A DNA stretch of 64,000 nt from Fischerella sp. CENA71. GTDB lineage: Bacteria > Cyanobacteriota > Cyanobacteriia > Cyanobacteriales > Nostocaceae. The position numbers and the translations under genes are program-made. The stretch spans positions 186,001-250,000 of the forward strand of contig JANBVI010000020.1 in assembly GCA_024239075.1 (NCBI GenBank). Direction: 5' to 3'. Below are positions 38,177 through 59,799 of this stretch, piece after piece; position 1 is the stretch's first letter; each line of letters starts with the position of its first letter. A model generated the notes under the pieces. It worked only from the letters and a program-made list of their open reading frames with translations, was not told where the DNA came from and did no database searches.

Positions 38177-38510
38177 AACCAGAGCTTGGTAACTTTACAT
38201 TTTACCTATATTTATTTTAAGTAGTGTCACTGTTTTTAGCTGTGGATCTTATGCTTTCTTCCTCATGGAATATTAAGCTTCGATTTCAAGGAGCAATTAA
38301 GTAAAAAGCATAGAACACATACCAATATTTCTCGGTTAAGGATTTTTCATCATAATTTGGGCTATGTAGAGACGCGCCATGGCGCGTCTCTGGTGGGTTT
38401 AAATGTCAATCGAGTTGTCTGATCCGAGCAGTATTGGAACACATACACATACGCTTAAAGAAAAATATTGACAGTATTTAATTGGAGGAAATTTTTATTT
38501 TAAAAAATCT
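38177..38510. other. Spacer upstream of uvrC holding a MITE-like element
   Basis: Contains the 115-bp element at 38322-38436 with its 9-bp direct repeats. The rest is AT-rich with no supported frame until 38511. Confidence 0.6.
38322..38436. mobile_element. MITE-like element, copy 2
   Basis: 115 bp. The ends CCAATATTTCTCGGTTAAG and CTGATCCGAGCAGTATTG are imperfect inverted repeats. The centre is a perfect palindrome GAGACGCGCC-ATGG-CGCGTCTC region (38366-38391). Direct repeats GAACACATA flank it (38313-38321 and 38437-38445). It aligns end to end with the element at 58648-58761 in the opposite orientation. It encodes nothing, so movement would depend on a transposase elsewhere. Confidence 0.8.
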
Positions 38511-38681
38511 TTGCGTATTGAAGAGAAATATCGTGACGGTATCGCCGAAACACTTAACGAATTGCAGACAGCAATGCTCATGTTGGCTCAAGTAGAATTA
38601 AAGATTTCACAAAGTGGAAATTACTTACAAAATATGAGCCATAAATTTGAAGAATTTATTAACGAACAAAAAACAGAATGA
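38511..38681 (+). CDS. Small helical protein with a non-ATG start (possible remnant)
   Basis: 56 codons reading LRIEEKYRDGIAETLNELQTA, MLMLAQVELKISQSGNYLQN and MSHKFEEFINEQKTE. It is a well-balanced amphipathic helical sequence unlike translated spacer. The frame is open back to a TGA at 38470-38472 but has no upstream ATG. A GGAGG site at 38483 is too far from the TTG at 38511, so the real start may be a rarer codon, or the 5' end has decayed. The function is unknown. It converges on the response regulator gene with a 20-bp gap. Confidence 0.45.
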   Translation: MRIEEKYRDGIAETLNELQTAMLMLAQVELKISQSGNYLQNMSHKFEEFINEQKTE

Positions 38682-38701
38682 AGAGCTATTTCAAAAAAAA
38701 A

Positions 38702-39127
38702 TTATAGATATTGACAAGCTAATTCTTCTTCGATTCCCATAACTAATTCAGTCAAATTGATTGGTTTGACGAAGTAGCGACGCGCTCCTAATTTCATAGC
38801 TTTTTCCTGATCTGCTTTAAAAGCAAATGCAGAAACTACAAATATAGGTATGTATTTTAAATCTGCTTTTTGCTGTTTTCTCTCTAATAGAGAGTAACCA
38901 TCAATGTCTGGTAGTTTAAGGTCTAATAAAATTAAATCAGGTTTAAAGTCTTCTATTGTTTCAAAAAAAGTAGAACCTTCTGGAAAACTTTGAACTTCAT
39001 ATCTACAGTAACTAAGATAGTCACTCAATAACATTCTATTGATGTCATTGTCCTCTATTAGTAATATTCTTTTTTGCCGTCTATATGATGGAAACTGTTG
39101 TTTAACAGTAAGTAATTGAGATGTCAT
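38702..39127 (-). CDS. CheY-like single-domain response regulator
   Basis: 141 aa. One receiver domain with acidic pocket IEDNDINR, phospho-acceptor in PDLILLDLKLPDIDGYSLL, switch VVSAFAF (Ser rather than Thr) and lysine in YFVKPINL. No output domain is present, so it likely passes phosphate or interacts with other kinases. No kinase is adjacent. Confidence 0.92.
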   Translation of the reverse strand: MTSQLLTVKQQFPSYRRQKRILLIEDNDINRMLLSDYLSYCRYEVQSFPEGSTFFETIEDFKPDLILLDLKLPDIDGYSLLERKQQKADLKYIPIFVVSAFAFKADQEKAMKLGARRYFVKPINLTELVMGIEEELACQYL

Positions 39128-39884
39128 TTCTATCTAGTGATTGTAGGCGGGAAGCAGATAAAATTTACCGTATTTCCAAAGAGTTCATATAGAAATATGA
39201 TACATACTTACAAAATAAACTTATTTAAGATCAGTTTAAAATACGAAGCAAGTTATATTTAACTGCATGATTTATGAATTCCTACTAAAATCTTAACTCA
39301 AAACATAAATTTAATTTTGAATAAAAATGCTAATGCTAATAATCATCATCAGAAGAGTGAGGTATGAGAATGAGAATAGTTAAGACTACCAACTTCTATA
39401 TATATTTATGTATTTTTACACTCTGCTACTCAGCAGATTCCACTAGCATACTCCATAAAATGACAAATGGCATTAGAGACTAAATAAGATAAGGCGATGG
39501 GAGGCTAAAATGTTTTGTGAGTAAGGATAGAAGCCAAAAAAAGGAGCTAACCACTCTTATTGTCTGTCTATAGTCTTAGAGTCCCAGCTTTTACTATGAT
39601 TGTGCTTTTTTTAGCTTACTTCGTGTAGTTATTCTGATCAATAATCCGAGCAAGGTACAGAGCTTCTCACCCCAACCCCCAAGCGCCCATTCCCCCAAAT
39701 GGGGTGTGATGGTGTAGGGATGTATGGATATGAGGACAAGCCAGATTTTCATCCTTTATGAGGTGAAATGACTAATGATCATATTTTGTTTTATAAAAAT
39801 ATTAAGTAACACAAATAACTGATACATTTTGTGATGCGAGCCACACTATATATTAAAGATGTAAAGGAGTTTTAAAGCGACGCA
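39128..39884. other. 760-bp gene-free spacer before the pentapeptide gene
   Basis: AT-rich first half. A C-rich segment with a CCCATT-CCCCCA-AATGGG hairpin lies at ~39687-39705. No coding frame is supported. A TAAAGGAGT ribosome site lies at its end for the pentapeptide gene. Confidence 0.5.
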
Positions 39885-40304
39885 ATGCATATAGACGAAC
39901 TTCTCAGACGTTATCAGTCGGGAGAAAGAAATTTCAAAGGTGCAAACCTCATTGGTGGTTACTTGTATGGAGTAAATTTGAGTGGAGCAAATCTACAAGG
40001 AGCATCTTTGAGTGAAGTTGATTTGAGCGAAGCAAACCTCACAGGAGTAAACCTCAGAGAAGCATCTCTAGTGAGAGCCAACCTCACAGGAGCCAACCTC
40101 ACAGAAGCTAATCTCAATGGAGCAAATCTGTTTGAAGCCAAGCTAACAGGAGCTACACTCCACGGAGCGCATCTGAAAATGGCAGACTTGATAGATGCAG
40201 ACTTTACTGCTGCCAATCTAGAAAAAGCTAATTTGTATGGTGCATATTTAACTGGAACTTTGTTGCAGGGTGCTATCATGCCAGATGGCACAATCTATCA
40301 GTGA
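39885..40304 (+). CDS. Pentapeptide repeat protein
   Basis: 139 aa, almost wholly A(D/N)LXX repeats (about 22 units from residue 18 to 132, e.g. GANLQGASLSEVDLSEANLTG) that fold as a right-handed quadrilateral beta-helix. No signal peptide or extra domain is seen. Cyanobacteria carry many such proteins; functions are mostly unknown. AAGGAG precedes the ATG at a suitable distance. Confidence 0.93.
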   Translation: MHIDELLRRYQSGERNFKGANLIGGYLYGVNLSGANLQGASLSEVDLSEANLTGVNLREASLVRANLTGANLTEANLNGANLFEAKLTGATLHGAHLKMADLIDADFTAANLEKANLYGAYLTGTLLQGAIMPDGTIYQ

Positions 40305-40807
40305 GTCATCCTCTAACAGGATTTTAGACTTCGTCGTGAGCGCTACTTCGACAAGGCTCAGTACAAGTCAATCGAACGATTTTGGATTGGTTCCAGGAAT
40401 CTAGGGGCATGGAACTAATTATTTAATGTTTCTGAATATTTTGAAATAATTATCACCGCAAATGTGCCAAAAATAAGTTGATGGCACCAAGGAATCGGTA
40501 AAAAGTCCATCAAGGCGATGCGATCGCCCTGAATCACATGTCCAATTCAAGTCAATTCGTTAAGCAGTAAGCACCATCTAGACCTCCGCAAGGGTACTCC
40601 CGCCTGGATGATAAAATGGTACAGGTGTCACAGTTCCATGGTTTTAATATTCTAAAAGTTTCAATTATCAACAAATATATATTGGACATCTGAAAAATAT
40701 CTGCGTACGATACTCCCATATAGAGATGGGTAAAGGGAAAGGAAAATTTTTATACCTTTCCCAATTTCTGCTATCTAATAATTCAGGAGTCCTAAGGAAA
40801 TATCAAA
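40305..40807. other. 500-bp spacer before ilvD
   Basis: Contains a TTCGACAAGGCTCAGTACAAG-like dispersed sequence near 40348-40369 and a HIP1 site. No leader peptide rich in branched amino acids, T-box or other recognised regulator was found. A CCTAAGGAAA ribosome site precedes ilvD. Confidence 0.45.
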
Positions 40808-42493
40808 ATGTCAGAAAATTTGAGAAGCAAAGTTGTTACCCAAGGAGTACAGCGATCGCCTAACCGTGCCATGCTGCGGGCTGTGGGTTTTCAAGATCAG
40901 GATTTTACTAAAGCCATTGTTGGCATTGCTAACGGTTATAGTACCATTACCCCTTGTAATATGGGGATCAACAAACTGGCACAAAGGGCAGAAATTGGTA
41001 TTAAGAATGCCGGAGCAATGCCACAGATGTTTGGCACAATTACCATTAGCGATGGTATTTCCATGGGAACCGAGGGGATGAAATACTCCTTGGTATCACG
41101 AGAAGTAATTGCTGATTCGATAGAAACTGCCTGTAATGGGCAAACAATGGATGGGGTGCTGGCGATTGGCGGTTGTGATAAAAATATGCCAGGAGCAATG
41201 ATTGCGATCGCTCGCATGAATATTCCTGCCATTTTCGTTTATGGTGGTACAATTAAACCTGGACACTACAACGGACGCGACTTAACCGTCGTCAGTTCTT
41301 TTGAAGCGGTAGGCGAATATAGCGCTGGTAAAATAGGCGAAGACGAGCTTTTGGCAGTTGAACGCAGTGCTTGTCCTGGTGCAGGTTCCTGCGGTGGAAT
41401 GTACACAGCTAACACCATGTCTTCTGCCTTTGAAGCAATGGGGATGAGTTTGCCCTACTCTTCCACAATGGCAGCAGAAGATGAAGAAAAAGCCGACAGT
41501 ACGGAAAAATCGGCATTTGTCCTCGTAGAAGCGATTCGTAAGCAAATTTTACCTCGTCAGATCATCACTCGTAAATCGATTGAGAATGCGATTTCTGTGA
41601 TTATGGCAGTAGGTGGTTCTACAAATGCTGTGCTGCATTTTTTGGCGATCGCTCGTGCTGCTGGCGTTGAACTTTGTCTTGATGATTTTGAAACTATCCG
41701 CGCCCGTGTTCCGGTTTTGTGTGATTTGAAACCCAGCGGTAGATATGTAGCAACAGATTTACACAAAGCTGGTGGTATTCCACAGGTCATGAAAATGTTA
41801 CTTGAGCATGATTTACTACACGGTGATTGCTTGACTATCAGTGGTCAAACAGTTGCAGAAGTCTTAGCAGAAGTGCCAAATGAACCCTCACCCAACCAAG
41901 ATGTGATTCGTCCTTGGGATAAGCCGATGTATACTCAAGGACACTTGGCTGTTCTGAAAGGTAATTTAGCCACAGAAGGAGCAGTAGCAAAAATTACTGG
42001 TGTAAAAGTTCCGAAAATTACTGGACCAGCACGAGTTTTTGAATCCGAAGAATCTTGCTTAGATGCTATTCTCGCCAAAAAAATTAATGCTGGTGATGTG
42101 ATTGTGATTCGCTACGAAGGCCCGAAAGGCGGCCCGGGAATGCGGGAAATGCTTGCTCCCACCTCAGCAATTATCGGGGCTGGTTTGGGCGATTCCGTGG
42201 GATTAATCACCGATGGTAGATTCTCAGGTGGTACTTATGGGATGGTTGTCGGACACGTTGCACCAGAAGCAGCTGTCGGCGGTGCGATCGCATTAGTAGA
42301 AGAAGGCGATACCATCACTATTGATGCTCACGCTCGTTCATTACAACTGCACCTATCTGATGAAGAATTAGCTCGTCGTCGTGAAAATTGGCAACCTCGT
42401 CCACCCCGTTATACTCAGGGTGTATTAGCCAAGTATGCCAAGTTGGTATCTTCTAGTAGTCTTGGTGCAGTGACAGATTTGGATTTGTTTTAA
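40808..42493 (+). CDS. ilvD: Dihydroxy-acid dehydratase
   Basis: Third common step of valine, leucine and isoleucine synthesis, turning dihydroxy acids into 2-keto acids. 561 aa. Conserved cysteines are C50 ([11 protein letters not shown]), C123 (GGCDKNMPG) and C195 ([17 protein letters not shown]); this set suits the [2Fe-2S] form of the enzyme. The C-terminal domain has [12 protein letters not shown] and [10 protein letters not shown]. It is complete and monocistronic, with a strong terminator. Confidence 0.96.
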
Positions 42494-42513
42494 AATAAAT
42501 CAGAGATAAACAA

Positions 42514-42552
42514 AACACAGATGCACATAAATAAGCATCTGTGTTTATTTTG
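42514..42552 (+). terminator. ilvD terminator
   Basis: 11-bp stem AACACAGATGC / GCATCTGTGTT with a 10-nt loop, then TATTTT. It starts 21 bp past the ilvD stop. Confidence 0.85.
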
Positions 42553-42603
42553 GATTGATCTTCTCATTCCACTCTTTTTTGAGTAATTCTAAAGCAGGAC
42601 TAC

Positions 42604-43938
42604 ATGCTAACCACCAATACCACCAGTTCTTTGCCTTTACCTCCCGGTAGTTTTGGCCTGCCTTTAATTGGAGAAACAATACCGTTTGTAAACGATCCAA
42701 ATTTTACTGAAAAGCGATACAAAAAGTATGGTTCTCTTTTTAGAACTCATATATTTGGGCGTCCAACTTTAATAGTCACAGGTGCAGAAGGGAACAGATT
42801 TTTATTCAGCAATGATCATAAATACTTTTCTAATAATTGGCCTTACAGCACTAGAATGCTTCTAGGCCCTGCATCTTTATCAGTTCAGCAGGGTACAGAA
42901 CATCAAAATCGTCGTAAACTACTATCGCAAGCTTTTCAACCAAGAGCTTTAGCTAGTTATACCAGCACAATGGAGCAAATTACCCATCAATATTTAGATA
43001 GATGGGAAAAACTCGCTACATTTACTTGGTATCCAGAACTCAGAAATTACACTCTTGATATTGCCTGCAAGTTGCTTGTGGGAGTTGATTCAGCTTCCCA
43101 AACTCAATTGGGTGAGTGGTACAAAATCTGGGTGGATGGTTTATTCACCCTACCAATAAACTTGCCGTGGACTAACTTTGGTAAGGCGTTACGTTGTCGA
43201 AAATTATTATTAGCTGAAATTGAAAAGATTGTTCGTCAACGTCAAGAAAGTGGGAACTCATATCAGGACGTTTTAGCACTACTTTTACAAGCAGAGGATG
43301 AAGAAGGTAAACGCTTAAGCCTCACCGAACTCAAAGACCAATTGTTGACTTTGCTATTTGCTGGTCATGAAACTTTGACCTCAGCATTGGCATCACTGTG
43401 TCTATTATTAGTACAAAATCCAGAGGTTTTAGCAACTGCTCGTAGTGAACAACAACAACTCGGTGTAGACACACCTCTAACCTCGGAAAATCTCAAGCAA
43501 ATGACTTACTTAGAGCAAGTCTTAAAAGAAGTAATGCGGCTGATTCCGCCTGTTGGTGGTGGTTTTCGAGAGGTAATCCAACCCTGTGAATTCAATGGTT
43601 TCCGCATTCCTCAAGGTTGGTCTGTACTATATCAAGTAGGTAAAACCCACAAAGATCAAAGTGTTTATAAGAACTCAGAAACATTTGAACCAGAGCGTTT
43701 TAGCCCACAAAGAGCAGAAGATAAACCCAAACCTTTTAGTTATATACCCTTTGGTGGTGGGGTACGGGAATGCCTGGGTAAGGAATTTGCCAAATTAGAA
43801 ATGAAACTTTTTGCAGCCCTTTTGCTGCGTCATTATCAGTGGGAACTATTACCCGAACAAAACTTAGAGATGATTATGGTTCCAACCCCTAATCCCAAGG
43901 ATGGTTTGAAGGTAAGCTTTCAAAGATTATTGAGTTAG
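42604..43938 (+). CDS. Cytochrome P450, CYP120-like
   Basis: 444-aa soluble P450. Landmarks are the proline-rich start LPLPPGSFGLPLIGE, the I-helix oxygen motif AGHET (253-257), the K-helix EVMR, and the heme loop FGGGVRECLG with ligand C390. Overall wording (FGLPLIGETIPF at the start and LEMIMVPTPNPKDGLKVSF at the end) is close to CYP120A1 of Synechocystis, a retinoic-acid-binding hydroxylase. A retinoid or apocarotenoid substrate is inference from that resemblance. Confidence 0.92.
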   Translation: MLTTNTTSSLPLPPGSFGLPLIGETIPFVNDPNFTEKRYKKYGSLFRTHIFGRPTLIVTGAEGNRFLFSNDHKYFSNNWPYSTRMLLGPASLSVQQGTEHQNRRKLLSQAFQPRALASYTSTMEQITHQYLDRWEKLATFTWYPELRNYTLDIACKLLVGVDSASQTQLGEWYKIWVDGLFTLPINLPWTNFGKALRCRKLLLAEIEKIVRQRQESGNSYQDVLALLLQAEDEEGKRLSLTELKDQLLTLLFAGHETLTSALASLCLLLVQNPEVLATARSEQQQLGVDTPLTSENLKQMTYLEQVLKEVMRLIPPVGGGFREVIQPCEFNGFRIPQGWSVLYQVGKTHKDQSVYKNSETFEPERFSPQRAEDKPKPFSYIPFGGGVRECLGKEFAKLEMKLFAALLLRHYQWELLPEQNLEMIMVPTPNPKDGLKVSFQRLLS

Positions 43939-43962
43939 GCTCGTCTACAATAAGAGCGATCG

Positions 43963-45063
43963 CTATCTCGGATAAGAAATACCATTAATCTGACGATCAC
44001 CTGTATACAATCCAGGAAATTGAGAAGTTGATGAGGAATTAGATTGTGGTACTTGAGTGGGCTGCTGCAAACTAAAAGAATTACTAGAGTTTCTGGAATT
44101 AACAACGCTTTGACTTGGTGTTTGGTTATAGTATGGCGTCACATTAGAGGATGTTGTAGGTGTAATAGATATTACCGCAGATGTGGGTGTTTGGATGCTG
44201 GGTGTAGAAAGGTTTGGATATTGGTTAGGAATGTTAGCGGCAGGAGAAACGGAATTTTGATTAGGGTAGTTTGTAGTATTATTGACGGGAGCGATCGCAT
44301 TTCCATTAAATACCGTAGTCGATGCTAAATTTTGATTGGGCAACAATAATGAATTTGTCTGACTTATCTGACTTAAAGTTGTACGATTCCCCAAAGACAA
44401 ACTTTGATTTGTTGATTGATTAAGAGCAGTTTGCAAAGGACTAACTACAGCAGTATTTTGTTTATAGTTGATAGGATTAGTGAATCCCATCCCCACATTA
44501 GTAGAAGTTTGTGTTGTATCTGTTTGAATAGACGACGTCGTTAAACCGTTTACTCCTAAAAACTGATTATTATTCTGAGAATTTTTGAATTGCAATAAAT
44601 TTTCTGTTTGTGACACAAATGGATTTTCTAGCTTTGGCGTAGATGCAGGATTTACTAGCTTCAAGCCAGAGTTGGAGTTAGCATCGGTGGCTGTTGTCTT
44701 TTGTTTGCTTAAGCTTTCTAAAATATTATTAGTATTGTCTAGTTTGGTATTTTGCTGGATATTAGTTGCTGTGGAAGGTAGAGTTCCATGAACAAAGTCA
44801 TAAAATAGAACTGGTAAGTTATCAATATCCGCAGCAATGGCTTTATCTTCTTGCGAAAGAGAAGAATTTACAGAGTTTTTTGCTCCAGCTTGTTGCTTAA
44901 CTGGCTTAAAATTAAACAAATCTGGCTGTTGCCAGTATTCTTCAAGCACAAATCCTACCACGGCTAAAAAAATTGCTGTTCCCCAAAAACTAGGTCGAGC
45001 CAAATTCCATAAGCTGGCTTTGAGAAAGCGTAAGTAGGTGAGAGGGTAGCGACGACCTGACAT
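43963..45063 (-). CDS. Low-complexity Asn/Gln/Ser/Thr-rich membrane-anchored protein
   Basis: 366 aa. A basic N terminus (SGRRYPLTYLRFLKASLWNLARP) and one transmembrane helix (~27-43, GTAIFLAVVGFVLEEYW) precede a ~310-residue tail. The tail is dominated by N, Q, S, T and P with few charges, probably disordered and outside the cytoplasm. It ends PGLYTGDRQINGISYPR, which looks more ordered and may be the conserved part. No catalytic domain is seen. The function is unknown; a cell-surface or septal role would be speculation. Confidence 0.7.
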   Translation of the reverse strand: MSGRRYPLTYLRFLKASLWNLARPSFWGTAIFLAVVGFVLEEYWQQPDLFNFKPVKQQAGAKNSVNSSLSQEDKAIAADIDNLPVLFYDFVHGTLPSTATNIQQNTKLDNTNNILESLSKQKTTATDANSNSGLKLVNPASTPKLENPFVSQTENLLQFKNSQNNNQFLGVNGLTTSSIQTDTTQTSTNVGMGFTNPINYKQNTAVVSPLQTALNQSTNQSLSLGNRTTLSQISQTNSLLLPNQNLASTTVFNGNAIAPVNNTTNYPNQNSVSPAANIPNQYPNLSTPSIQTPTSAVISITPTTSSNVTPYYNQTPSQSVVNSRNSSNSFSLQQPTQVPQSNSSSTSQFPGLYTGDRQINGISYPR

Positions 45064-45300
45064 GTTAAACCTGATGGAATTAAGGGAGAAAGAGTAGGAA
45101 TATTATCCTAGCCCCTCAATAGTTATTTAGTCATTATTGATAGACAACTCTTAGTATAAAATTTACAATAAACTACATCAGATCGTTTTTCCCCTTTCCC
45201 TTCTTTCTGTCAGTTTCGATATCATCTCAAAATTAAATCTGCTCTAACTTAATGCTTGTGGCTGGGCAAAAGTTGGACTCTAATTCAACAGGAGCAGAAC

Positions 45301-45921
45301 ATGAAAGCAGAAGATATCATGACCAAAGAGGTTGTTAGCATCCGCAGTTCAGCAACTGTTGCTGAAGCAGTTGGTGTAATGAAGGAAAAACGATTGCGGG
45401 CTTTGGTTGTGGAGCGCAATCATGATAATGATGCTTACGGTATTGTTACTGAGACTGACATTATTTATAAAGTAACAGCTTATGCCAAAGACCCCAAACA
45501 AGTACGTATCTACGAAATTATGAGCAAGCCCTGCATTATTGTCAATCCCGAATTGGCTGTAGAATATGTAGCGCGGTTATTTGCCAACACAGGAATTCGC
45601 AGAGCGCCCGTAATTAAAGGTAAGCTGTTGGGAATAATTTCTGTCACCGATATTCTCACCAAAAGTGATTTTGTCGAAAAGCCACAATCAGTTTTGCTAG
45701 AAGACAAAATTCAACAAGCGATCGCAGATGCTCGCGCCATATGTTCTCTCTACGGTACATTATCTTCAGAATGTGCCGCAGCCTGGGTAACAGTAGAAGA
45801 AATTCAAGCAGAAGCAGCCCATCAAAAAGCTGGACATATAGCATTTACCAAAACATCATTTGAGCAATACTGTGCAGCCAACCCAGATGCACCAGAATGC
45901 CGAATTTATTATGAAGATTGA
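45301..45921 (+). CDS. CBS-CP12 fusion protein
   Basis: 206 aa. Residues ~1-125 are a CBS-domain pair (MKAEDIMTKEVVSIRSSATVAEAVGVM, YGIVTETDIIYKV, RAPVIKGKLLGIISVTDIL) that may bind adenylates. Residues ~135-206 are a CP12 domain with both cysteine pairs, C148/C158 and C191/C200 (AWVTVEEIQAEAAH, QYCAANPDAPECRIYYED). CP12 bridges GAPDH and phosphoribulokinase in redox control of the Calvin cycle; the CBS-fused form, known from cyanobacteria, may add energy sensing. I use the ATG at 45301 after AACAGGAGCAG; the frame extends to 45256 without conservation. Confidence 0.88.
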   Translation: MKAEDIMTKEVVSIRSSATVAEAVGVMKEKRLRALVVERNHDNDAYGIVTETDIIYKVTAYAKDPKQVRIYEIMSKPCIIVNPELAVEYVARLFANTGIRRAPVIKGKLLGIISVTDILTKSDFVEKPQSVLLEDKIQQAIADARAICSLYGTLSSECAAAWVTVEEIQAEAAHQKAGHIAFTKTSFEQYCAANPDAPECRIYYED

Positions 45922-45984
45922 ATAAGTTAGTCATTTGTCAATGGTCAAGGGTCAATTGTCATTAGTTATTCTCCCTTGTCCCCG

Positions 45985-46031
45985 TGTCTCCCTTGTCCCC
46001 GATCCCCGATCCCTGATCCCCGATCCCCGAT
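45985..46031. repeat. CCCCGATCCCTGATCC tandem
   Basis: Seven-base CCCCGAT/CCCTGAT units in tandem between CBS-CP12 and lptF/G, running into the lptF/G stop. This is the complementary form of the GGGGATNGGGGAT family seen at 4421, 5801 and 31692. Confidence 0.8.
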
Positions 46032-46032
46032 C

Positions 46033-47202: not shown

Positions 47203-47218
47203 GAGTCATTGGTTATTA

Positions 47219-50604: not shown

Positions 50605-50620
50605 CTAAAAATTAGAACTG

Positions 50621-50883: not shown

Positions 50884-51801
50884 TTATTCAAAGAGGCGTT
50901 CGTCAAGCCAAGCGAAGCCAGCACCTGTGATTTCTGCAAGAATACTGACTAGACGATAGACAGCTATTGCACTGATGACTACCGCAGCAGGAAAATAGTT
51001 TTGTAGAAGCGCGATCGCAGTTGCTTCAAATACACCTAATCCACCAGGCGCACCCGGAACAACAAGCCCAAGTAACCAAGCAAAACTAAAAGCCGTGAAC
51101 AATAAGGGAATTTGACTTAAATTTAAATAACTCAAAGCATAAAAAGTTAAAATAAATCCGGTTCCGCGCAATCCCAAAAATCCCATTTCTCCTAATAAAG
51201 GCAATAGAGGGTAGTGTTCCATAGTAAAACTCACATCTGAAGTATTTGTGGGATCAGACTTCTTTGTCTTCAAGCGATACATTAAGCGAATTAATAGGTT
51301 TAAAAATCGGGGATGAAGCACACACAACACTATAATTAAACCTAGTATTTGCCCTATATGTACACTCAAGCTAGTATTTGTTTGAACAAATAAACTGCTT
51401 GATAAGACAACAATTAAAGCTGCTGCGGCCATAAGTAAAGGTTCTAGTAATACACTCAAAGTGGCTACAGCGGTAGAAACATTGGCATTTTTTGCCGCTA
51501 TAATTCGCCCATAATAATGCCAAACATTACCCGGTAAATACTTAGCAAGGTTGGTTTGCAGATAAACGTGGATAAACTGCACAGATGATACGGGTTGATT
51601 TAAATGTTTGAGAATCCAAGTCCAAACCCAGCCAGCCCAAGTATGTCCTAATAAAGTTACACCAGTTGCGATCGCGATCATTGCCCATCCTACTGCATCA
51701 ATGCGAATAGCAGTAATTCCTTGCCAGTTATCCTTTAAGGCTTTCGCCAAAAAAAACAGCGTTCCACCCAAAATTAACCAGCGTAAAAATTTTTTTATCA
51801 T
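50884..51801 (-). CDS. Lysylphosphatidylglycerol synthase TM/UPF0104 flippase-like membrane protein
   Basis: 305 aa with about eight transmembrane helices and no synthase domain. The family motifs YLPGNVWHYYGR (near residue 93-104) and VPGAPGGLGVFEATAIALL (near 250) are clear. Relatives include the membrane half of MprF and glycolipid flippase-like proteins. Transport of a lipid or lipid-linked molecule is inference; the substrate is unknown. Confidence 0.88.
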   Translation of the reverse strand: MIKKFLRWLILGGTLFFLAKALKDNWQGITAIRIDAVGWAMIAIATGVTLLGHTWAGWVWTWILKHLNQPVSSVQFIHVYLQTNLAKYLPGNVWHYYGRIIAAKNANVSTAVATLSVLLEPLLMAAAALIVVLSSSLFVQTNTSLSVHIGQILGLIIVLCVLHPRFLNLLIRLMYRLKTKKSDPTNTSDVSFTMEHYPLLPLLGEMGFLGLRGTGFILTFYALSYLNLSQIPLLFTAFSFAWLLGLVVPGAPGGLGVFEATAIALLQNYFPAAVVISAIAVYRLVSILAEITGAGFAWLDERLFE

Positions 51802-52171
51802 TGCAGAGATTTAACTGTTTGGCTAGCCTTTGATTAAACACCTCAAATCATACAGTAGAGGCAGAGTCTTTGGGTAACAAATATTGAATTTGCTGTAAAT
51901 AATTAAACTTAATATCTTATCTCTTTGCTTATTAAATCTTTTCTGATTTATGATTTTTTCTACTTATATCCATCTTAAGTTAGATAAAAATCCCACTATT
52001 TTAATAACAATAATGTGACTTACGCTAGAGGAAAAACCTCCTTTTAAATACGTATTCTAAGAAATCGATTGTTGTATTAAACAAAAATCAACTCCAGCAA
52101 TAAAGCTAACTGAGTTTTATCATTACTCAGATTAAGTGATTATATTTGTTTGGTGTTGAAAGGAGGAATTG
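51802..52171. other. Divergent spacer upstream of the lipoprotein pair
   Basis: AT-rich. Small hairpins are GAGG-AAAAA-CCTC-CTTTT near 52029 and CTGAGT-TTTATCATT-ACTCAG at 52110-52130. It ends with a strong GAAAGGAGG ribosome site for the first lipoprotein. Confidence 0.5.
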
Positions 52172-52708
52172 GTGAACAGTTTAATTGCAGTTGTAAAAAA
52201 ACTACGCCTGCGGCAAGTTTTAACTGTATTTTTAGCAGGTTTATTGTTAATAGTTAGTACTGCTTGTAGTAGTAAGTATGCTCAAGGCGCACAGCCATAT
52301 AATCCACCTGTACAAGCTGGCGGAGCCAACAATCCTTACAAGGATAGTGGGGATAAATATACAAACTTAAAGATGTCCAAGTCTGGACGCGATCAAGCTA
52401 GTTTGCAGCTAAATTCACAAGTGTTTTTGGCTGATGTCAATGACAACTCTGAACTGCTTTATCCTGGTGCGGAAACACCGGTAGGTAGAGCCTATAAAGA
52501 AGGAGAATTACCAATTAAATCTGAAAAAGATTTCCGTCCAAATGCTGGTAATTTGATTCAGAATGAACCAAGTGTAACTCAAAGAGCAAAAGACAGAATT
52601 GAAACTGTTAAAGAAGCTGTAGAAGAAGCTTCAGGATTTTTGAAAGATAAAGGAAATGAAGCTGCCAATAGACCAGAATTGCAACCTAATCCAGCAGTCA
52701 ATAAATAA
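52172..52708 (+). CDS. Lipoprotein 1 of a paralogous pair (DUF6658-like)
   Basis: 178 aa. The start is GTG at 52172, chosen because AGGAGG lies 5 nt upstream; a TTG one codon earlier would be too close. A basic n-region (VVKKLRLRQ), hydrophobic core (VLTVFLAGLLLIV) and lipobox STAC mark it as lipid-anchored. The mature chain is polar, with YKEGELPIKSEKDF and an amphipathic C-terminal segment (RAKDRIETVKEAVEEASGFLKDKGNEAA). Its N terminus matches the next gene closely. The function is unknown. Confidence 0.8.
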   Translation: MNSLIAVVKKLRLRQVLTVFLAGLLLIVSTACSSKYAQGAQPYNPPVQAGGANNPYKDSGDKYTNLKMSKSGRDQASLQLNSQVFLADVNDNSELLYPGAETPVGRAYKEGELPIKSEKDFRPNAGNLIQNEPSVTQRAKDRIETVKEAVEEASGFLKDKGNEAANRPELQPNPAVNK

Positions 52709-52795
52709 AGGTTAATTCCAAATTCTCAAAATTCACGATTTTAGGTTAAGTATTGCTGAGTTTTTAACTAATTCAAACACGATAAGGAGTTCCAC

Positions 52796-53323
52796 ATGAA
52801 CAAAGTAATTTCTTGGGTCAAAAAAGTTAGATTACACCAAATTTTCACAGTTTTTGTACTAGGTGTTTTAGTATTCTTCACCCAGGCTTGTTCTCCTTCA
52901 ACAGCTGCTCAATCTACACAATCTCCCAAAGGCAATGCTGAAGTATATGTTCCCAAGGGTGATAATGTCATTAATCCTTATGAAGGTGGGATGAATAACT
53001 TTAGCGATAGAGATCCAAGAGCAAAAAGTGATGCAAAAGCTAGAGGTGAATACTTAAAAGAAAACGCTGCCCAAAATCAAGCTGAAAAATCTACTAATAA
53101 CCCCCTTGAAGCTATCCGTCGTGTAGGTTCTGATGCAGGTAGCCTTGGTAAAAATGTTCAGCAAAAAGCTGAAGATGTAGGAAATAAAGTTCAAAATACT
53201 GCTGAAGATTTTGCTAGAGGAACCAAGCAGGGAGTTGAAAATATCAAGGGTAACACTCAGGATGCTGGTGATTACGCCAAAGACATTACTAAGCACACGG
53301 TTCGAGATACCCTCAGAGACTAG
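52796..53323 (+). CDS. Lipoprotein 2 of the pair, with LEA/apolipoprotein-like tail
   Basis: 175 aa. The leader VKKVRLHQIFTVFVLGVLVFFTQAC parallels that of lipoprotein 1. The C-terminal ~70 residues repeat an 11-residue-like pattern rich in A, K, D and V (NVQQKAEDVGNKVQNTAEDFARGTKQ...), as in late-embryogenesis-abundant or apolipoprotein helices that protect or bind membranes. An AAGGAG ribosome site precedes the ATG. A terminator follows. Stress protection is inference. Confidence 0.8.
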   Translation: MNKVISWVKKVRLHQIFTVFVLGVLVFFTQACSPSTAAQSTQSPKGNAEVYVPKGDNVINPYEGGMNNFSDRDPRAKSDAKARGEYLKENAAQNQAEKSTNNPLEAIRRVGSDAGSLGKNVQQKAEDVGNKVQNTAEDFARGTKQGVENIKGNTQDAGDYAKDITKHTVRDTLRD

Positions 53324-53376
53324 ATCGCCTAGTTGAAGTAAATTAAAATATTCCTCATCCTTTTAGGATATCAACA

Positions 53377-53400
53377 AAGCCTGCCTATGCAGGCTTATTT
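53377..53400 (+). terminator. Terminator of the lipoprotein pair
   Basis: 8-bp perfect stem AAGCCTGC / GCAGGCTT with loop CTAT, then ATTT, 54 bp past the second lipoprotein gene. Confidence 0.75.
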
Positions 53401-53477
53401 AGTGAATTCCAATAATAAATCTATGTGTGTGCATCAATGGTCTATTTTTAGAACACAAATTTTGTTGTGCTTTCAAT

Positions 53478-54755
53478 TCACTCAGGCATAAATTGTAAAT
53501 GCCAATTTTGTAGTACCATTCTTTGAATTTCTCGCCAAGGAATATTATGTTTTCTGGCTAATTCTGCACAATCTTCGTATTCTGGCTGGACGTTATTTAT
53601 AACTCTATTATTTGCATTTCCTGTCCATGCTACTTTGACACGCACTACACCATATTTTGTTTCTACTTGTTGAAATTCTCTATGCAAAATAGCGCGTTGT
53701 TGCTCATAACGACGAATACCTAAAGTTGTTGTTTCACGAAATAAAACAGTTTCACAACTAATTAGATTTTCTGGAGGACAAATTACTGTCAGCAAGATAC
53801 CTGGACGAGACTTTTTCATCCCTATAGATTGAGTAAAAACATCAACTGCACCTGCTGCAAATAAAGCCTCAAATAAATAACCGATCGCTTGAGGACTTAA
53901 ATCATCTATTTGGGTTTCTAATACTGATATGGTTTCTAAAGTTGGACTAGTATTAGCGACAGATGAGCGATCGCTAACTCCGACATCTGTAGTTTCTCCT
54001 AGCCATAGGCGTAATATATTAGGAATTGATAAGTTGAGATTACCTGCTCCCAGTCCGATTTGCTTAATCTTCATCGGAGGTGGCGCACCAAATTCTTTCG
54101 CAAGTGTCGTGGCGATCGCAGCACCTGTGGGTGTCACCAGTTCCCGTTCAATCCCGTTGCTGTAAACTGGACAACCCCGCATTTCCCATAACTTTAACAC
54201 TGCTGGTACTGGTACTGCCATTTGTCCATGAGCAGCACGCACTGTTCCCCCCCCAGTCGGAAATGCTGAACAGTAAAGCAGGGGTAATCCTCTTTCGTCA
54301 CTCTCAACCCCCAACCAATCTAATCCCAAGCAAGTACCAACAATATCTACAATTGCATCAACTGCACCGACTTCGTGAAAGTGAACTTTTTGAGGGGAAA
54401 TACCATGTACTGCGCCTTCAGCAACTGCTAACTGTCGAAATACCGCTAAACTCCAAGCTTCAACTCTTGCAGGTAAGCCAGCATTGAGAATGATTTGTTC
54501 TATTTCTGGTAAATGGCGGTGATGGTGATGATTATGGTGATCATGATCGTCAGATAATAAGTCAACATGAACTTTCGTTGCTTGCTGACCATGGCGCTGA
54601 ACAAGTTCGGCCCATAATTTATATTCCTGTACAATACCTAAGTGATTAAGTTTCTCTATTAGGTATTTCAAGGGAACACCCAGACTTACCAATGCTCCCA
54701 GACACATATCACCAGAAATTCCCGATGGACATTGAAGATAAGCGAGTTTAGTCAT
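53478..54755 (-). CDS. larC: Nickel-pincer cofactor biosynthesis protein LarC
   Basis: 425 aa, of the LarC/TIGR00299 family that inserts nickel into the pincer nucleotide of lactate racemase-type enzymes. N-terminal domain motifs are YLQCPSGISGDMCLGALVSLG, FHEVGAVDAIVDIVG and ELVTPTGAAI. The middle has a His-rich metal-binding run, HDHHNHHHHRH (residues ~71-81). The C-terminal domain includes LETQIDDLSPQAIGYLFEAL. It is encoded as one chain here, with no programmed frameshift as in Lactobacillus. larA, larB and larE are not adjacent, so the enzyme served is unknown. Confidence 0.9.
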   Translation of the reverse strand: MTKLAYLQCPSGISGDMCLGALVSLGVPLKYLIEKLNHLGIVQEYKLWAELVQRHGQQATKVHVDLLSDDHDHHNHHHHRHLPEIEQIILNAGLPARVEAWSLAVFRQLAVAEGAVHGISPQKVHFHEVGAVDAIVDIVGTCLGLDWLGVESDERGLPLLYCSAFPTGGGTVRAAHGQMAVPVPAVLKLWEMRGCPVYSNGIERELVTPTGAAIATTLAKEFGAPPPMKIKQIGLGAGNLNLSIPNILRLWLGETTDVGVSDRSSVANTSPTLETISVLETQIDDLSPQAIGYLFEALFAAGAVDVFTQSIGMKKSRPGILLTVICPPENLISCETVLFRETTTLGIRRYEQQRAILHREFQQVETKYGVVRVKVAWTGNANNRVINNVQPEYEDCAELARKHNIPWREIQRMVLQNWHLQFMPE

Positions 54756-54790
54756 ATGTATTTTTTGCTAGTAGTTAGTAGCCCTGCCTG

Positions 54791-54857
54791 AACTGCGTAC
54801 ACTAGGGTGAATAAAAATATGATTCTTCTTACACCCCTACACCCCTTACACCCCTTT
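54791..54857. repeat. Dispersed spacer repeat, copy B (inverse of 2903-2969)
   Basis: Reads GCGTACACTAGGGTGAATAA then TACACCCC units. It is the reverse complement of the segment at 2903-2969 with few differences, and lies in the larC/Sua5 divergent spacer. Confidence 0.75.
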
Positions 54858-54938
54858 TACAAGCTAGTTAGTAGTTAGTTGTTCGTTCACCTTTTACCAC
54901 TATCCACTATCCACTAACCACTATCTATCACCCAATTT

Positions 54939-55598
54939 ATGACAAAAATTTTCTCAGTTCATCCTGATAATCCCCAGATCCGCCGAATAGAGGAGATAAA
55001 GACGGCACTGTCTGATGGTGCAGTGATGCTTTATCCTACTGATACAGTTTATGCGATCGGTTGTGATTTAAATGCTAAGTCGGCGGTGGAACGAGTACGG
55101 AAAATCAAACAACTAGCAAACGATAAACCATTGACGTTTTTGTCTCCATCACTTTCTAATGTAGCGACCTATGCAAATGTCAGCGACACTGCCTACCGAA
55201 TTATGAAACACCTAATTCCGGGGCCATATACGTTTTTGCTACCTGCAACAAAATTAGTTCCACGTCTGGTGCAAAATCCCAAACGGAAGACTACTGGAAT
55301 TAGAGTGCCAGATCATAAAATGTGCTTGGAACTGCTGTCAGCCTTAGGAAATCCGATAATTTCGACTTCAGCACATTTGCCACCAGATGAGACAAATAAT
55401 GGGACTTTGGGAGTGGAAGAAGAACAAATTTTATCGCGAGTCGAATTATTTGACCGTTTGGAAGGATTGGTTGATGTTATTGTAGACACTGGTGAGGAAC
55501 CAAATTACGAAGTGTCTACAATTTTGGATTTAACGGGAGAGGAACCAATAATGATCAGGCAAGGTTTAGGTTGGGAAAGAGCCACAGCATGGGTATAG
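54939..55598 (+). CDS. Sua5/YciO/YrdC family protein (threonylcarbamoyladenylate synthase type)
   Basis: 219 aa. YrdC fold motifs are DGAVMLYPTDTVYAIGCDL, KIKQLANDKPLTFLS, KRKTTGIRVPDHKMCLELLSALGNPIISTSAH and STILDLTGEEPIMIRQGLG (described in parts). The family makes threonylcarbamoyl-AMP for the t6A37 modification of tRNA. The YDSVSTIIDL-like tail and length resemble the YciO branch more than TsaC, so the catalytic role in t6A is likely but not certain. Confidence 0.88.
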   Translation: MTKIFSVHPDNPQIRRIEEIKTALSDGAVMLYPTDTVYAIGCDLNAKSAVERVRKIKQLANDKPLTFLSPSLSNVATYANVSDTAYRIMKHLIPGPYTFLLPATKLVPRLVQNPKRKTTGIRVPDHKMCLELLSALGNPIISTSAHLPPDETNNGTLGVEEEQILSRVELFDRLEGLVDVIVDTGEEPNYEVSTILDLTGEEPIMIRQGLGWERATAWV

Positions 55599-55949
55599 TA
55601 AATTAACTTCACTGCGTAGGAATTTAATTTCGGAAACTGTAAATAAGAAAACACCACTTTCATGATTGTCATAAGGACAAAGCAAAGCTATCTTAGGAGC
55701 ATTACAGGGATGAATCTTTGCAAATTAAGAGTTTTGGCTGTTTTGGAGTGGTCAAAAAAACTCGTGCATTAGCCATTGTTAAGTTGCTTATCGAAAAACC
55801 GACACATTGCCTTACCTGGAACTTGCGGATATTTCTTACATTCTTAAATGTAAGCAACGCTTGCGGTGATTATTAAGCTATCAAAGCTTAATTACTGTGG
55901 CGTCTGTTTCCATGTCGTTACGGTGCAGTACCACTCCCAATCAAAGATC
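55599..55949. other. Spacer upstream of the HetZ-related gene
   Basis: No gene. A TTCTTACATTCTTAAATGTAAGCAA segment (short ACATT/AATGT dyad) lies near 55837-55858. An open frame in phase with the regulator extends back to 55866 but looks like translated spacer. No GTA-N8-TAC NtcA site was found by eye. Confidence 0.45.
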
Positions 55950-57140
55950 ATGAAAGCTAATTCTGCTAATCTACCAACTGTTACACCGATTTCTCACAGC
56001 TACAGCGATGCTTTAATTCAATTTTTATATAAAGAAATACAAGCACACTCGAAAGCAGCACCTGGTTGTATGCAAGCTGTGGCAATGCGTATAGCCAAAG
56101 AAGTAGAGCGTATATGTGAGAAAAGTCATCGTATTCAAAAATCAGGGCAACTCAAGACTTGGTTATTAACTTTAGGACGCCATCGTTTACAAAAATGCTT
56201 GCATTATTACCGATTGGGTTCCAAGCAGGGACGGGTAGAATTACATAGTTGCTTAGGTGCGATGGTATATCGTCATATTGGCATTCCCGGAACTGAATTA
56301 GGATTTCAAGCTCGCTACAACTTAATTGAAGATTTCCTCCAAGCATTTTATATTGAGGCAATCAAAGCTTTCCGCCGAGAAAATGAATTAGCCGAAGATT
56401 ATACCCCCCACACTCTGCTACAGCTAGCGGAATACATGGCTTTTACAGAACAATATGCGAAACGTCGCATTAATCTAGCTGGCGGCGCTAATCAGCAGTT
56501 GATTATCCTGCGCGCTCAAACTTTTGCTCGGCGTCTACCGCAAGAAACAAATGTAGATTTTGAAATGGCTACAGAAACTGCTAAGACTGAAGATGCAGAA
56601 TCCTATCAGCGGAATTCAGCGGTGCAACAGTTGCGATCGCAAATGATTTCTCAACCAAGTTTTGATTTAGCTGAAGATAGTGAACGCGATCGCGTCATTT
56701 CAGAATTGACCAAATATTTTGAATCCCAAGGCCAACACGATTGTATTGATTATCTCGTATTAAAACTTCAAGATTTATCAGCACCAGAAATTGACCAAAT
56801 TCTTGGTTTAACCAGTCGCCAGCGAGATTATCTCCAACAACGTTTTAAATACCATGTGGAAAAGTTTGCTCGTACCCATCATTGGCAATTAGTTCATCAA
56901 TGGTTGGGTGTGGGTTTAGAACAAAAGCTAGGCTTGTCTTCTCAACAGTGGGAACGCTTTTTAGATGAGCTTTCTGAGCAACAACGGCAGATATTGCAAC
57001 TTAAAGCTGCTAAACACACAGATCAAGCGATCGCTAAAACCCTCAAATGCACTCCCAAACAACTGCAAAAGCGCTGGACTCAGTTGTTAGAACAAGCATG
57101 GGCTATCCGCAATGGAAATGCAGAAGTTCAGACTGGTTGA
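55950..57140 (+). CDS. HetZ-related DNA-binding regulator
   Basis: 396 aa from the ATG at 55950. The N-terminal part reads SYSDALIQFLYKEIQAHS then GQLKTWLLTLGRHRLQKCLHYYRLGSKQGRVELHSCLGAMVYRHI (in parts). It is the conserved block of the HetZ family, which controls heterocyst commitment in Anabaena. The C-terminal part has two sigma region 4-like HTH segments (APEIDQILGLTSRQRDYLQQRF and QQRQILQLKAAKHTDQAIAKTLKCTPKQLQKRW). In Anabaena hetZ is followed by patU genes; none follow here, so this may be a HetZ paralog rather than HetZ itself. It is a good marker of the filamentous lineage. Confidence 0.75.
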   Translation: MKANSANLPTVTPISHSYSDALIQFLYKEIQAHSKAAPGCMQAVAMRIAKEVERICEKSHRIQKSGQLKTWLLTLGRHRLQKCLHYYRLGSKQGRVELHSCLGAMVYRHIGIPGTELGFQARYNLIEDFLQAFYIEAIKAFRRENELAEDYTPHTLLQLAEYMAFTEQYAKRRINLAGGANQQLIILRAQTFARRLPQETNVDFEMATETAKTEDAESYQRNSAVQQLRSQMISQPSFDLAEDSERDRVISELTKYFESQGQHDCIDYLVLKLQDLSAPEIDQILGLTSRQRDYLQQRFKYHVEKFARTHHWQLVHQWLGVGLEQKLGLSSQQWERFLDELSEQQRQILQLKAAKHTDQAIAKTLKCTPKQLQKRWTQLLEQAWAIRNGNAEVQTG

Positions 57141-57245
57141 AGCTTTTATTGCTTTTATTGCTTATTAGTTAAGATTGGCTAATTTCTCTAATTTTTTGGT
57201 TGTAGATGCCTATTCTAAATAAATTACTTACATATTCCCTATTTT

Positions 57246-57261
57246 ACCCCATCAATGGGGT
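57246..57261. repeat. ACCCCAT hairpin
   Basis: Perfect 7-bp stem ACCCCAT / ATGGGGT with a 2-nt loop. The T-run needed for a terminator is absent. Confidence 0.5.
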
Positions 57262-57411
57262 AACGACTATAGGGAAACGCCATGTTTAGCACCTCTCAAA
57301 TAGTCCAGAAAAAAGCAAAATTTTAATCTTTTTATTTTATTAAATTTAAATTGTATATTTCATATATTCTTAAATAATTTTTATAAAAAACAAATAATTT
57401 GGAACAACAAT

Positions 57412-57470
57412 ATCCCCGACTTCTACTCTCCGGGAAGCCACCCGCAGAGTGTTTTCAAGAAGTCGGGGAT
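57412..57470. repeat. ATCCCCGACTTCT palindrome element
   Basis: Perfect 13-bp arms ATCCCCGACTTCT (57412-57424) and AGAAGTCGGGGAT (57458-57470) around a 33-nt loop. A related shorter form is at ~20680-20703. Confidence 0.8.
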
Positions 57471-57695
57471 ATGACTCTCTTAATAACTACACGAAATGAT
57501 ATGAGAACAAAAAAAGTGAAAGCTAGAAAAGTGCCATTTTTATTAATAAACATGCTAAAATCCAATTTTGTGAAAGTTTTTAAAAAACTCAAACCAACAA
57601 TCGCATCACATTTTTGAGGCGGGAGTGTCAAAATATATATAAATCGTGCAGATCACAAAAAACCTACAGTTAAGAGCAAGGCAGTTTAAAATCAA

Positions 57696-57902
57696 ATGTT
57701 TGATGGATTTTGGGATAACGTCTTTCGCTACCAGCGCTACTTCATCACTACCCTGTTAGGCATTTTGTTGAACACGTTCGCGCCATTAGCACCCTTGTTA
57801 AAACGCCCAGTAACATTAATTGCCCTCTTGGGCTTTTTAGCTGGTGGACTAGTATTCGTAACTCTGACCCTACGCGCCATGCTGGGTTTGAGTACAATTT
57901 GA
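57696..57902 (+). CDS. ycf33: Ycf33/DUF751 family small membrane protein
   Basis: 68 aa with two hydrophobic helices (FITTLLGILLNTFAPLAPLL and VTLIALLGFLAGGLVFVTLTLRAML, in parts). It matches the Ycf33/DUF751 family of cyanobacteria and algal plastids; a role around photosystem I cyclic electron flow has been proposed for Ycf33 and is not testable here. It precedes rbfA by ~100 bp, a pairing I recall from other cyanobacteria. Confidence 0.87.
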   Translation: MFDGFWDNVFRYQRYFITTLLGILLNTFAPLAPLLKRPVTLIALLGFLAGGLVFVTLTLRAMLGLSTI

Positions 57903-58003
57903 ATTCAAACTATATAGAGGATGTATTCTCAAAACTGGATCAGGTAAACTGACAAAAACAGAAAAATAACGTAGTACAACCTCTGTGAGGAGGCATGATT
58001 TTT

Positions 58004-58408
58004 ATGGCTACAAATCGCCGCGTTTCCCGCGTTGCTGAATTAATTAAACGGGAAGTTAGCCAAATGCTACTCAATGGCATAAAAGATGACCGTGTGGGTA
58101 CAGGAATGGTAAGTGTTACCGATGTTGACGTTTCTGGCGATTTGCAACACGCTAAAATCTATGTGTCAATATATGGCACAGAAGAAGCAAAAGCAGAAAC
58201 AATGGCTGGCTTGAAGTCTGCGACAGGTTACGTTCGTAGCGAACTCGGCGCACGAGTGCGCCTACGCCGCACACCAGAGGTAGTGTTTATCGAAGACCGT
58301 TCCATAGAACGCGGTACAAAAGTGTTATCGCTATTGAACCAACTCGAACTTCAACGTAAACCAGAAAATTTGAAAGATGATGGCGAAAATGGTACAGAAG
58401 ATGTCTAA
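58004..58408 (+). CDS. rbfA: 30S ribosome-binding factor A
   Basis: 134-aa KH-fold factor for late maturation of the 16S rRNA 5' end and cold adaptation. Motifs are [51 protein letters not shown] and [20 protein letters not shown] (described in parts). I choose the ATG at 58004 because GAGGAGG is ten bases upstream; the ATG at 57995 is too close to it. It has the usual acidic C-terminal tail. Confidence 0.95.
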
Positions 58409-58465
58409 TCTGCGAAATCTGTAACTTAAACTACTATTTCTTGGCAGAAATTAGCTATGCATTTT

Positions 58466-58493
58466 ACAGACACGACCTGTTCGTGTCTGTTTC
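58466..58493 (+). terminator. Terminator-like palindrome after rbfA
   Basis: 10-bp stem ACAGACACGA / TCGTGTCTGT with loop CCTGT, then TTTC, 57 bp past the rbfA stop. It is also worded like the dispersed AGACGCGA palindrome at 31821. Confidence 0.65.
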
Positions 58494-58647
58494 AATATCT
58501 TTAATGAGGTTTTGGTGGCGCTTTGGCACCGCTAGAAAAGACTTTACATTTATTTACATACTACACCTCTTGCAAAAATAATAAAGAATCCCTCCCAAAT
58601 CCTTCTCGAAACGGAGAGAGATTTTTTCGTTTGAGGAGGAGTGATTG

Positions 58648-58761
58648 CAATACGGTTCGGATAAGACAAATCGATTGGCATCTAAACCCTGTAGAGACGT
58701 GCCATGGCACGTCTCTACATGCCCAAATCATGACGAAAAATTCTTAACCGAACCGTATTGA
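58648..58761. mobile_element. MITE-like element, copy 1
   Basis: 114 bp. The ends CAATACGGTTCGGATAAGA and TTCTTAACCGAACCGTATTG are inverted repeats, perfect over 13 bp. The centre is a perfect 28-bp palindrome (58691-58718, GTAGAGACGTGCC arm). Direct repeats GAGTGATTG flank it (58639-58647 and 58762-58770). It has no coding capacity. It aligns with copy 2 at 38322-38436 in the reverse sense over its full length. Confidence 0.85.
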
Positions 58762-59799
58762 GAGTGATTGTTTATTGCTGTAGATAGTTCTTTGTGGACG
58801 AATAGATTATCTATGCTATCTGCTGTGTAAATCTGATGATTGATTCCGGTCTTGATTTGCGAAGGCTGTATTGCAGGAAAATTTCATAGTTATAGGTTAA
58901 TGGTTGAATTTTGTTTTTTATTGATAACCATTGAAAAACTTAACAGTCAATAACTAGCAACTAACTGATACTACATACTTTCCCATGCATTAGAAACTTC
59001 GTAATCATTTTTCTCAGCTATGAGAAGAATTTATAACATCAAACAAAGTTAACAATCAATGACAAAATGGTTTACGTTGCTTAATGTTGATGCATAAATA
59101 AATACAATGTAATTTATTTATGCATATGATTTCAGCAATTTTACTGTTAACTAAAGATGGAATATGTAATTCAATTATGTGAACTCCAAATCACCACAAC
59201 AGCTAGCTTAGAGGTATATCAACATAATCTAAAATCACCATCAAGATTGCTACAAATATTCCAATGAGGAAATTTGTTTGGTAGTAGTGTTAAACTTCAG
59301 CTACTGGTTAAAAGTTTATTTAAGAAATAATTAACAAACAAACCTCTATAAGCTTGAGTGGTGTATTGTAGCCCTTATCGCTTGCAGCAGTTTATACATA
59401 TATTTCAACCAGATATTCTCTGTTTGTTTTTCCATATAAAATGCTAGCGTCCAGGACAGCTAATTACATAGATACTTGAGTATGTTATGCATTTATTTGG
59501 CCAATATATGGTTTTTGTCTATGGATACTAATATTTAATGACTGCCCTGTTCAAAGCAAGCAAACATTAACCCTAACAACAATTTGAATAATTTGATTTC
59601 AGGGAGTAAAAATAAAATGTCATGAGTATTTGACAAATTTAACATTTATTTACATAATTTTATGATGTGTAGCGTCAAAATGAAAATAGTTCCGTATACC
59701 AAATTACAAAATCCCAGTTATAGGCCTACTCATTGCTATGTTTGTTCCTAACAGATTTTTGGGAACACTACTTAACGTGTAAAATTCTGAGTAAAGATC

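Follow-up and report, generated by a model that had tools for sequence, protein, structure and literature searches.

Cyanobacterial miniature inverted-repeat transposable elements (MITEs) such as Nezha are already known as a kind of element. The Nezha MITE of Anabaena and Nostoc was reportedly described by Zhou, Tran, and Xu in 2008, and the small dispersed repeats (SDRs) of Nostoc, reportedly the subject of a study by Elhai et al. in 2008, are said to be found also inside minitransposons. In the accessible part of a report on Nezha, ISNpu3-like elements are proposed to move this MITE (PMC3049150). The available text of a second paper describes GTAG-tagged repetitive extragenic palindrome (REP) repeats of filamentous cyanobacteria (i.e., a palindrome starting with GTAG; PMC3733652), and that of a third gives 147 MITEs for Anabaena sp. 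90, some complete and others partial, most of them in intergenic DNA (PMC3542288). Here we describe two MITEs (elements 1 and 2) in a 64,000-nucleotide stretch of Fischerella sp. CENA71 (referred to here as the window; G000:C20:186001-250000 of a 7.47-Mb draft genome in 95 contigs). We propose, with a probability of roughly 0.92, that the IS4-family transposase of a full-length insertion sequence (IS) with the same ends mobilizes these MITEs in trans.

Element 1 (114 bp; window positions 38323 to 38436, plus strand) has the ends CAATATTTCTCGGTTAAG and CAATACTGCTCGGATCAG and belongs to subfamily A (26 full-length genome copies), and element 2 (113 bp; 58648 to 58760, minus strand) has the ends CAATACGGTTCGGTTAAG and CAATACGGTTCGGATAAG and belongs to subfamily B (17 full-length genome copies). 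The two lie in opposite orientation and align over their whole length once one is reverse-complemented. Both are bounded by CAATA..TATTG, and a 10-bp direct repeat (plus strand) abuts each of them. This target duplication is exact at element 1 (GAACACATAC; 38313 to 38322 and 38437 to 38446) and has one mismatch at element 2 (GGAGTGATTG at 58638 to 58647 and AGAGTGATTG at 58761 to 58770). The central palindrome (referred to here as the core; strand not applicable) occupies positions 38366 to 38393 of element 1 and 58690 to 58719 of element 2, where it is a perfect palindrome of 30 bp; the 19-nt arms of element 2 are 95% complementary. The list of window open reading frames (ORFs) includes none of ≥100 amino acids (aa) at either element. 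The end pattern CAATACGGTTCGGTTAAG has three matches in the window, compared with 0.03 expected by chance, and the single place in the window with exact 10-mers around a 114-bp stretch is element 1, indicating that the elements are not chance occurrences. An earlier note on this DNA had reported two elements with matching ends, a central palindrome, and common internal words, all of which are present. We corrected its element bounds to those given above, and its 9-bp duplications are in fact 10 bp long.

The genome-wide search that the earlier note had advised yielded at least 47 dispersed full-length copies with these ends, all at different places. With element 1 as the query, at least 26 subfamily A copies were obtained (≥93% identity across 112 to 114 bp), and element 2 retrieved at least 17 subfamily B copies (≥89% identity across the full 113 bp); these counts are lower bounds, with the best 40 of 136 and the best 40 of 132 candidates scored, respectively. 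Another four copies, of a 141-bp variant, were detected via their paired ends. One more copy resembling this variant (L298) was left out of the count, as were several that are diverged or partial (L027, L125, and L304). In both size classes (113 to 114 bp and 141 bp), the 18-bp ends face each other in opposite orientation. The mean identity between subfamilies A and B is 83%, and A copies share 97% identity in the body.

The 10-bp flanks were exact duplicates in 31 copies, differed by one mismatch in 10, and differed by 2 to 9 mismatches in 6 (exact, one mismatch, and more: 18, 7, and 1 for A; 11, 1, and 5 for B; 2, 2, and 0 for the 141-bp variant); i.e., 41 of the 47 copies have a duplication with at most one mismatch. 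When the flanks of different copies were paired as a control, one mismatch was observed in 1 of 2,162 pairs and an exact match in none. An 8-, 9-, 11-, or 12-bp duplication abutting both ends was found in none of the 47 copies. Genome-wide copies devoid of terminal repeats or duplications, which the earlier note had named as evidence against its proposal, were not what the search returned. Open frames of ≥150 codons contain none of the 46 copies tested as the sequence stands, and one copy would interrupt such a frame, as judged by its removal. The target preference is weak (positions 1 to 3 mostly A/G, G/C, and T/A). Targeting of AT-rich sites was rejected on the basis of the G+C content of the flanks (39.7%, versus 40.3% for the loci).

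Among 218 genomes of the family (four candidates scored per genome), element 2 was matched at an E value of ≤0.001 in 193, a figure that includes many matches to the core only and is not a count of MITE-bearing genomes. Full-length matches occur in several genera (g1, g7, g9, g22, and others), and a plasmid search gave a single record (Nostoc sp. HK-01; 74%). The 141-bp variant (L073, L078, L079, and L266) has ~28 extra bases in the center of the palindrome (ATAGCGCTATAGCGCATGGCTTCGCTAA), which are themselves repeat-like. Another type of MITE with like ends is present at G000:C30:100923 (L308), with the ends CAATACAGTTCAGTTAAG and the flanks ATCCATTACT and ATCCATAACT and without the core palindrome.

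The left flank of both insertion sites is present in all four congeners compared (G001 to G004). At the site of element 1, G002 aligns continuously across the junction, with a single target copy and no element; G004 aligns across the empty site only loosely, and the adjoining intergenic DNA of G001 and G003 does not align. Element 2 is absent from the aligned stretch in all four congeners. The comparison of empty sites suggested by the earlier note was informative only in part: it is clean at element 1 in one congener (G002), and the site of element 2 is rearranged in all four. The second outcome that the note had named as contrary evidence, syntenic strains with the same flanks and no empty site, did not occur either.

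The full transposon with the same ends that had also been suggested as a target for searches is present in Nostoc sp. XA010 (L212). This 1,475-bp IS has CAATACGGTTCGGTTAAG at both ends, identical to the left end of B, and an exact 10-bp duplication (AGGTCACTAG). It encodes an intact 409-aa transposase that scored 180.4 bits against NF033592 (cut-off, 115) and scored above the cut-offs for PF13006 and PF01609. The partner element belongs to the IS4 family, given the presence of the IS4 N-terminal and DDE_Tnp_1 domains. The transposase also carries DGT and YREK motifs. In the Fischerella genome, exact B 18-bp ends adjoin pieces of IS4-family transposase genes at two places. The piece on contig C62 is a 171-aa N-terminal open frame running into a gene that we take to be IS630-like, and the piece on C26 is a 273-aa C-terminal open frame; these fragments match Nterm_IS4, DDE_Tnp_1, and NF033592. 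Because their outer 10-bp flanks disagree, the two pieces need not be parts of one element.

The C-terminal piece was used to search five genomes of the genus. G002 has an intact frame with 71% identity (L159) in a 1,473-bp element with CAATACTTTTCGGTTAAG at both ends and flanks that are not duplicated, as well as a broken copy with 93% identity to the query. A wider contig search found relatives of the transposase at 19 loci, including those in Nostoc, Calothrix, and others. In Calothrix sp. PCC 7716, a 2,184-bp two-gene IS4 element (L215, 2019 to 4202) has the ends CAATACTGCTCGGTTAAG and a 10-bp duplication; two elements of Calothrix PCC 7103 have the ends and no duplication. The second gene of these ~2.2-kb IS4 elements (L215, 2019 to 4202, and L168, 482 to 2011, the latter in G002) is divergent (126 to 132 aa), and the Calothrix copy had no Pfam match at 0.1. 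In a BLASTN comparison of the MITEs with the ISs, the 18-bp ends matched and nothing else of note did.

Other candidates in the host were rejected. A 982-bp pair of ends (C9:204974-205955) contains no transposase gene, and one of its ends comes from a diverged MITE-like sequence. The remaining host IS4-like genes (on C53, C30, C58, C57, and C62) have 26 to 34% identity and no convincing ends. On C55 (L317), another IS4 start in the host, next to CAATACGGTTCAGTTAAG, is a remnant consisting of a 67-aa frame with no second end within 3 kb at ≤3 mismatches.

The 47 copies, the duplications, and the XA010 IS support the proposal of the earlier note that the element is nonautonomous and moved by a transposase encoded elsewhere. 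That the elements form an IS4-dependent MITE family, ordinary in kind, is well supported. From the copies, their ends and duplications, the matching IS, and the host remnants, we infer that a transposase of the XA010 type is the probable mover. Each MITE would consist of two 18-bp transposase recognition ends around ~77 bp of noncoding DNA with a palindromic dispersed repeat midway. An IS4-family (DDE) transposase from a full-length IS would bind both ends and excise or copy the MITE, and a 10-bp staggered cut at insertion would give rise to the 10-bp duplication. The host transposase copies are broken in the draft, and current movement would require a copy in the assembly gaps or an external supply.

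Several observations weigh against such mobilization by an IS4-family transposase. No intact cognate transposase was detected in the host, as searched with one protein query (the C-terminal piece) in the 95-contig assembly. The full-length ISs L159, L220, and L221 have such ends and unmatched flanks (6 to 9 mismatches in 10), and the five copies in Calothrix sp. PCC 7716 have one common flank and were therefore counted as one case. The similarity between the MITEs and the ISs stops at the 18-bp ends; it thus supports mobilization in trans and does not support the origin of the MITEs by internal deletion of an XA010-type IS. There is no clean empty site at element 2, with junction DNA that differs in length in all four congeners. 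In addition, the duplication exceeds one mismatch in 6 of the 47 copies. Of these six, one is accounted for by a nested transposition (C20:13368-13595; L044 and L026), which itself speaks for mobilization and in which an A copy (C20:13484) lies within the end of a B copy. The duplication of the nested A copy consists of the last 7 bp of B and 3 flanking bp, and that of the interrupted B copy (CCTGACTTCT) reappears beyond the nested A copy, which explains this failure.

Alternatively, a transposase of a different family with the same ends could move the MITEs, the IS4 element being coincidental. Such a case could draw on the broken state of the host IS4 transposase copies and on the fact that only the terminal 18 bp are common to the MITE and the IS4 element. 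We nevertheless consider it improbable, given that the XA010 IS has the exact left end of B on both sides, that its duplication is likewise 10 bp, and that the host IS4 gene fragments also adjoin exact ends. The good folding of elements 1 and 2 as RNA (z scores, −4.7 to −10.7 on four of four strands) and the better folding of one strand under RNA parameters, which 45 of the 52 distinct elements show (no fewer than 5 of these 52 being wrongly oriented in that analysis), would suit conserved structural repeats, i.e., RNA hairpins, terminators, or regulatory stem-loops with incidental duplications. Under DNA parameters, however, the strands hardly differ, and conserved RNA-level structure was rejected because RNAalifold gave only a weak consensus, of the same strength on the two strands (−15.4 and −15.1). 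The elements are also absent from the orthologous intergenic regions of the congeners, and structural repeats are already contradicted by the 10-bp duplications in 41 of the 47 copies, making this explanation very unlikely.

We assign almost no probability to the remaining explanation, in which mobility resides in the central palindrome and the body around it is carried along. It would accommodate the palindromes that occur outside the MITE family and in frame within genes, but the duplications abut the CAATA ends and not the palindrome, and the A body is 97% identical, so the whole 113 to 114 bp moved. This explanation is refuted for the 47 copies, although a separate mode of spread may exist for the palindrome.

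A dispersed repeat in its own right, the central GTAGAGACG palindrome also occurs by itself, within other MITE-like elements, and, in frame, within genes. With one mismatch allowed, the pattern AGAGACGNNNCATNNNNCGTCTC was matched 82 times forward and 85 times in reverse in the host genome, and the reversed control gave 0 and 1 matches, respectively; because the pattern is palindromic, these matches represent roughly 85 places. Among the matches listed, 14 places outside the A and B copies were examined. Five of them (L252, L253, L254, L259, and L262) have another body in common, with the borders ATACCA[A/T]TT and GTGAAATGGTAT; a terminal inverted repeat of ≥12 was computed for only one of these five (L253; 107 bp). 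Inverted repeats of ≥12 surround the lone cores at 4 of the 14 places (L253, L257, L259, and L263). Those of L257 and L263 are of a third kind (16 and 24 nt, respectively), and that of L259 was rejected, as it lies off the common body and looks like chance. One place (L255) has a single CAATACTACTCGG end. At three others, the core is in frame within genes, i.e., at a linker in recF (L258; G000:C32:51383-52006) and, in two modules of polyketide synthases, at the KS-AT linker (L260 and L261; G000:C44:108992 and 127908). The last three (L256, L264, and L265) have neither features of other elements nor an in-frame position in a gene. L256 is the solitary core without MITE ends at window positions 35283 to 35310 (strand not applicable). 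The earlier note had listed it as a core-only palindrome; its presence was confirmed, and it represents the separate repeat, not a relic of this element. It is absent at the aligned place in the congeners, whose intergenic DNA has diverged too far to reveal a clean empty site.

For the recF linker, the best 30 of 118 matching family genomes were compared (L267 to L296). Both exact arms (GTAGAGAC/GTCTCTAC) are kept in 7 of the 30, one of which (G003) has a different perfect inner palindrome; the others have decayed arms or different inserts, including short repeats such as the AGTCAGG repeats of L293. Among 97 distinct core contexts, whose collection relied on the outer arms and brought in some chance matches, the 63 cores with 12-nt centers preserve complementarity through double changes (second pair: C-G, 28, and T-A, 24; fourth pair: C-G, 36, A-T, 17, and G-C, 6; fifth pair: C-G, 39, and T-A, 16). 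In the open-licence literature, we found no cyanobacterial report of the GTAGAGACG palindrome and none joining MITE, Nostoc, the IS4 family, and the palindrome, neither of which is proof of absence in print.

The unusual side of this MITE family appears to be its modular makeup. In a comparison of A with B (21 and 13 distinct rows, respectively, after identical copies had been collapsed and the wrongly oriented L025 excluded), the mean identity was 56% in the first 9 columns, 75% in the last 9, and 86% in between, i.e., the outer tips differ most. The B tips are those of the XA010 IS, and the right A tip (CAATACTGC) is that of the two-gene elements in Calothrix and G002 (L168); the left A tip (CAATATTTC) had no match to a full-length IS. 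In relatives, the body is well kept and the inner arms of the palindrome vary. The body of L186 is 95% identical to that of a B copy, yet TTGCAGTGGAA replaces TGCCATGGCA in the inner arms of the palindrome. In L187 to L191, the bodies are 81 to 86% identical, with CGATATATCG, CGATAAATCG, or CGATTCATCG as inner arms. It is conceivable, if somewhat unlikely, that the MITEs are assembled from exchangeable 9-bp tips and a center that docks a self-spreading palindrome with swapped inner-arm cassettes. Tip exchange would then fit one body to different IS4 transposase specificities, with the B tips corresponding to the XA010-type IS and the right A tip to the two-gene Calothrix/G002-type IS. Cassettes such as GCCATGGC, CGATATATCG, and TTGCAGTGCAA, among others, would be common to MITE families, lone copies, and in-frame gene insertions, and the palindrome (~30 bp) would itself be a mobile unit riding several unrelated transposons. 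If so, the spread of very short palindromic repeats on transposons, and the switching of a MITE between transposases, could be tested directly in this family.

Apart from the two MITEs, the window contains a lone end (CAATACGGTTCAGTTAAG; 7891 to 7908, plus strand) with one mismatch to the B end, at the place where the earlier note had located a single end-like sequence. No partner end was detected nearby at ≤3 mismatches, and the interior is unrelated to the MITE. Matches to Rfam comprised a group I intron (RF00028; 50245 to 50508), a CyVA-1 RNA (62159 to 62235), and an NsiR1 RNA (31889 to 31939). The latter two, like the named relatives of the IS4 gene, mark the DNA as cyanobacterial.

The IS4-family ISs (NF033592; PF13006 and PF01609) are among the closest known systems. 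The XA010 element has the 18-bp ends of the MITEs and a 10-bp duplication, whereas the MITEs encode nothing and have no sequence in common with it past the ends. The core palindrome resembles the Nostoc SDRs, as reportedly described, in being a very short dispersed repeat found inside minitransposons and elsewhere, a likeness of description only. Compared likewise by description and not by sequence, the family resembles Nezha, as presented in the accessible part of its report, in being a small noncoding cyanobacterial MITE with an IS with like ends as the proposed mover. The GTAG REP repeats, as far as the available text of that paper describes them, likewise start with GTAG and are tagged at one end, whereas the core here is symmetrical, with GTAG paired with CTAC at the opposite end. 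For the comparable MITEs of Anabaena sp. 90, the accessible text of that study states that no partner IS with the same terminal repeats was found (PMC3542288). Here one was found, and a high-copy cyanobacterial MITE family is tied to a specific IS4-family element through identical ends and duplication length.

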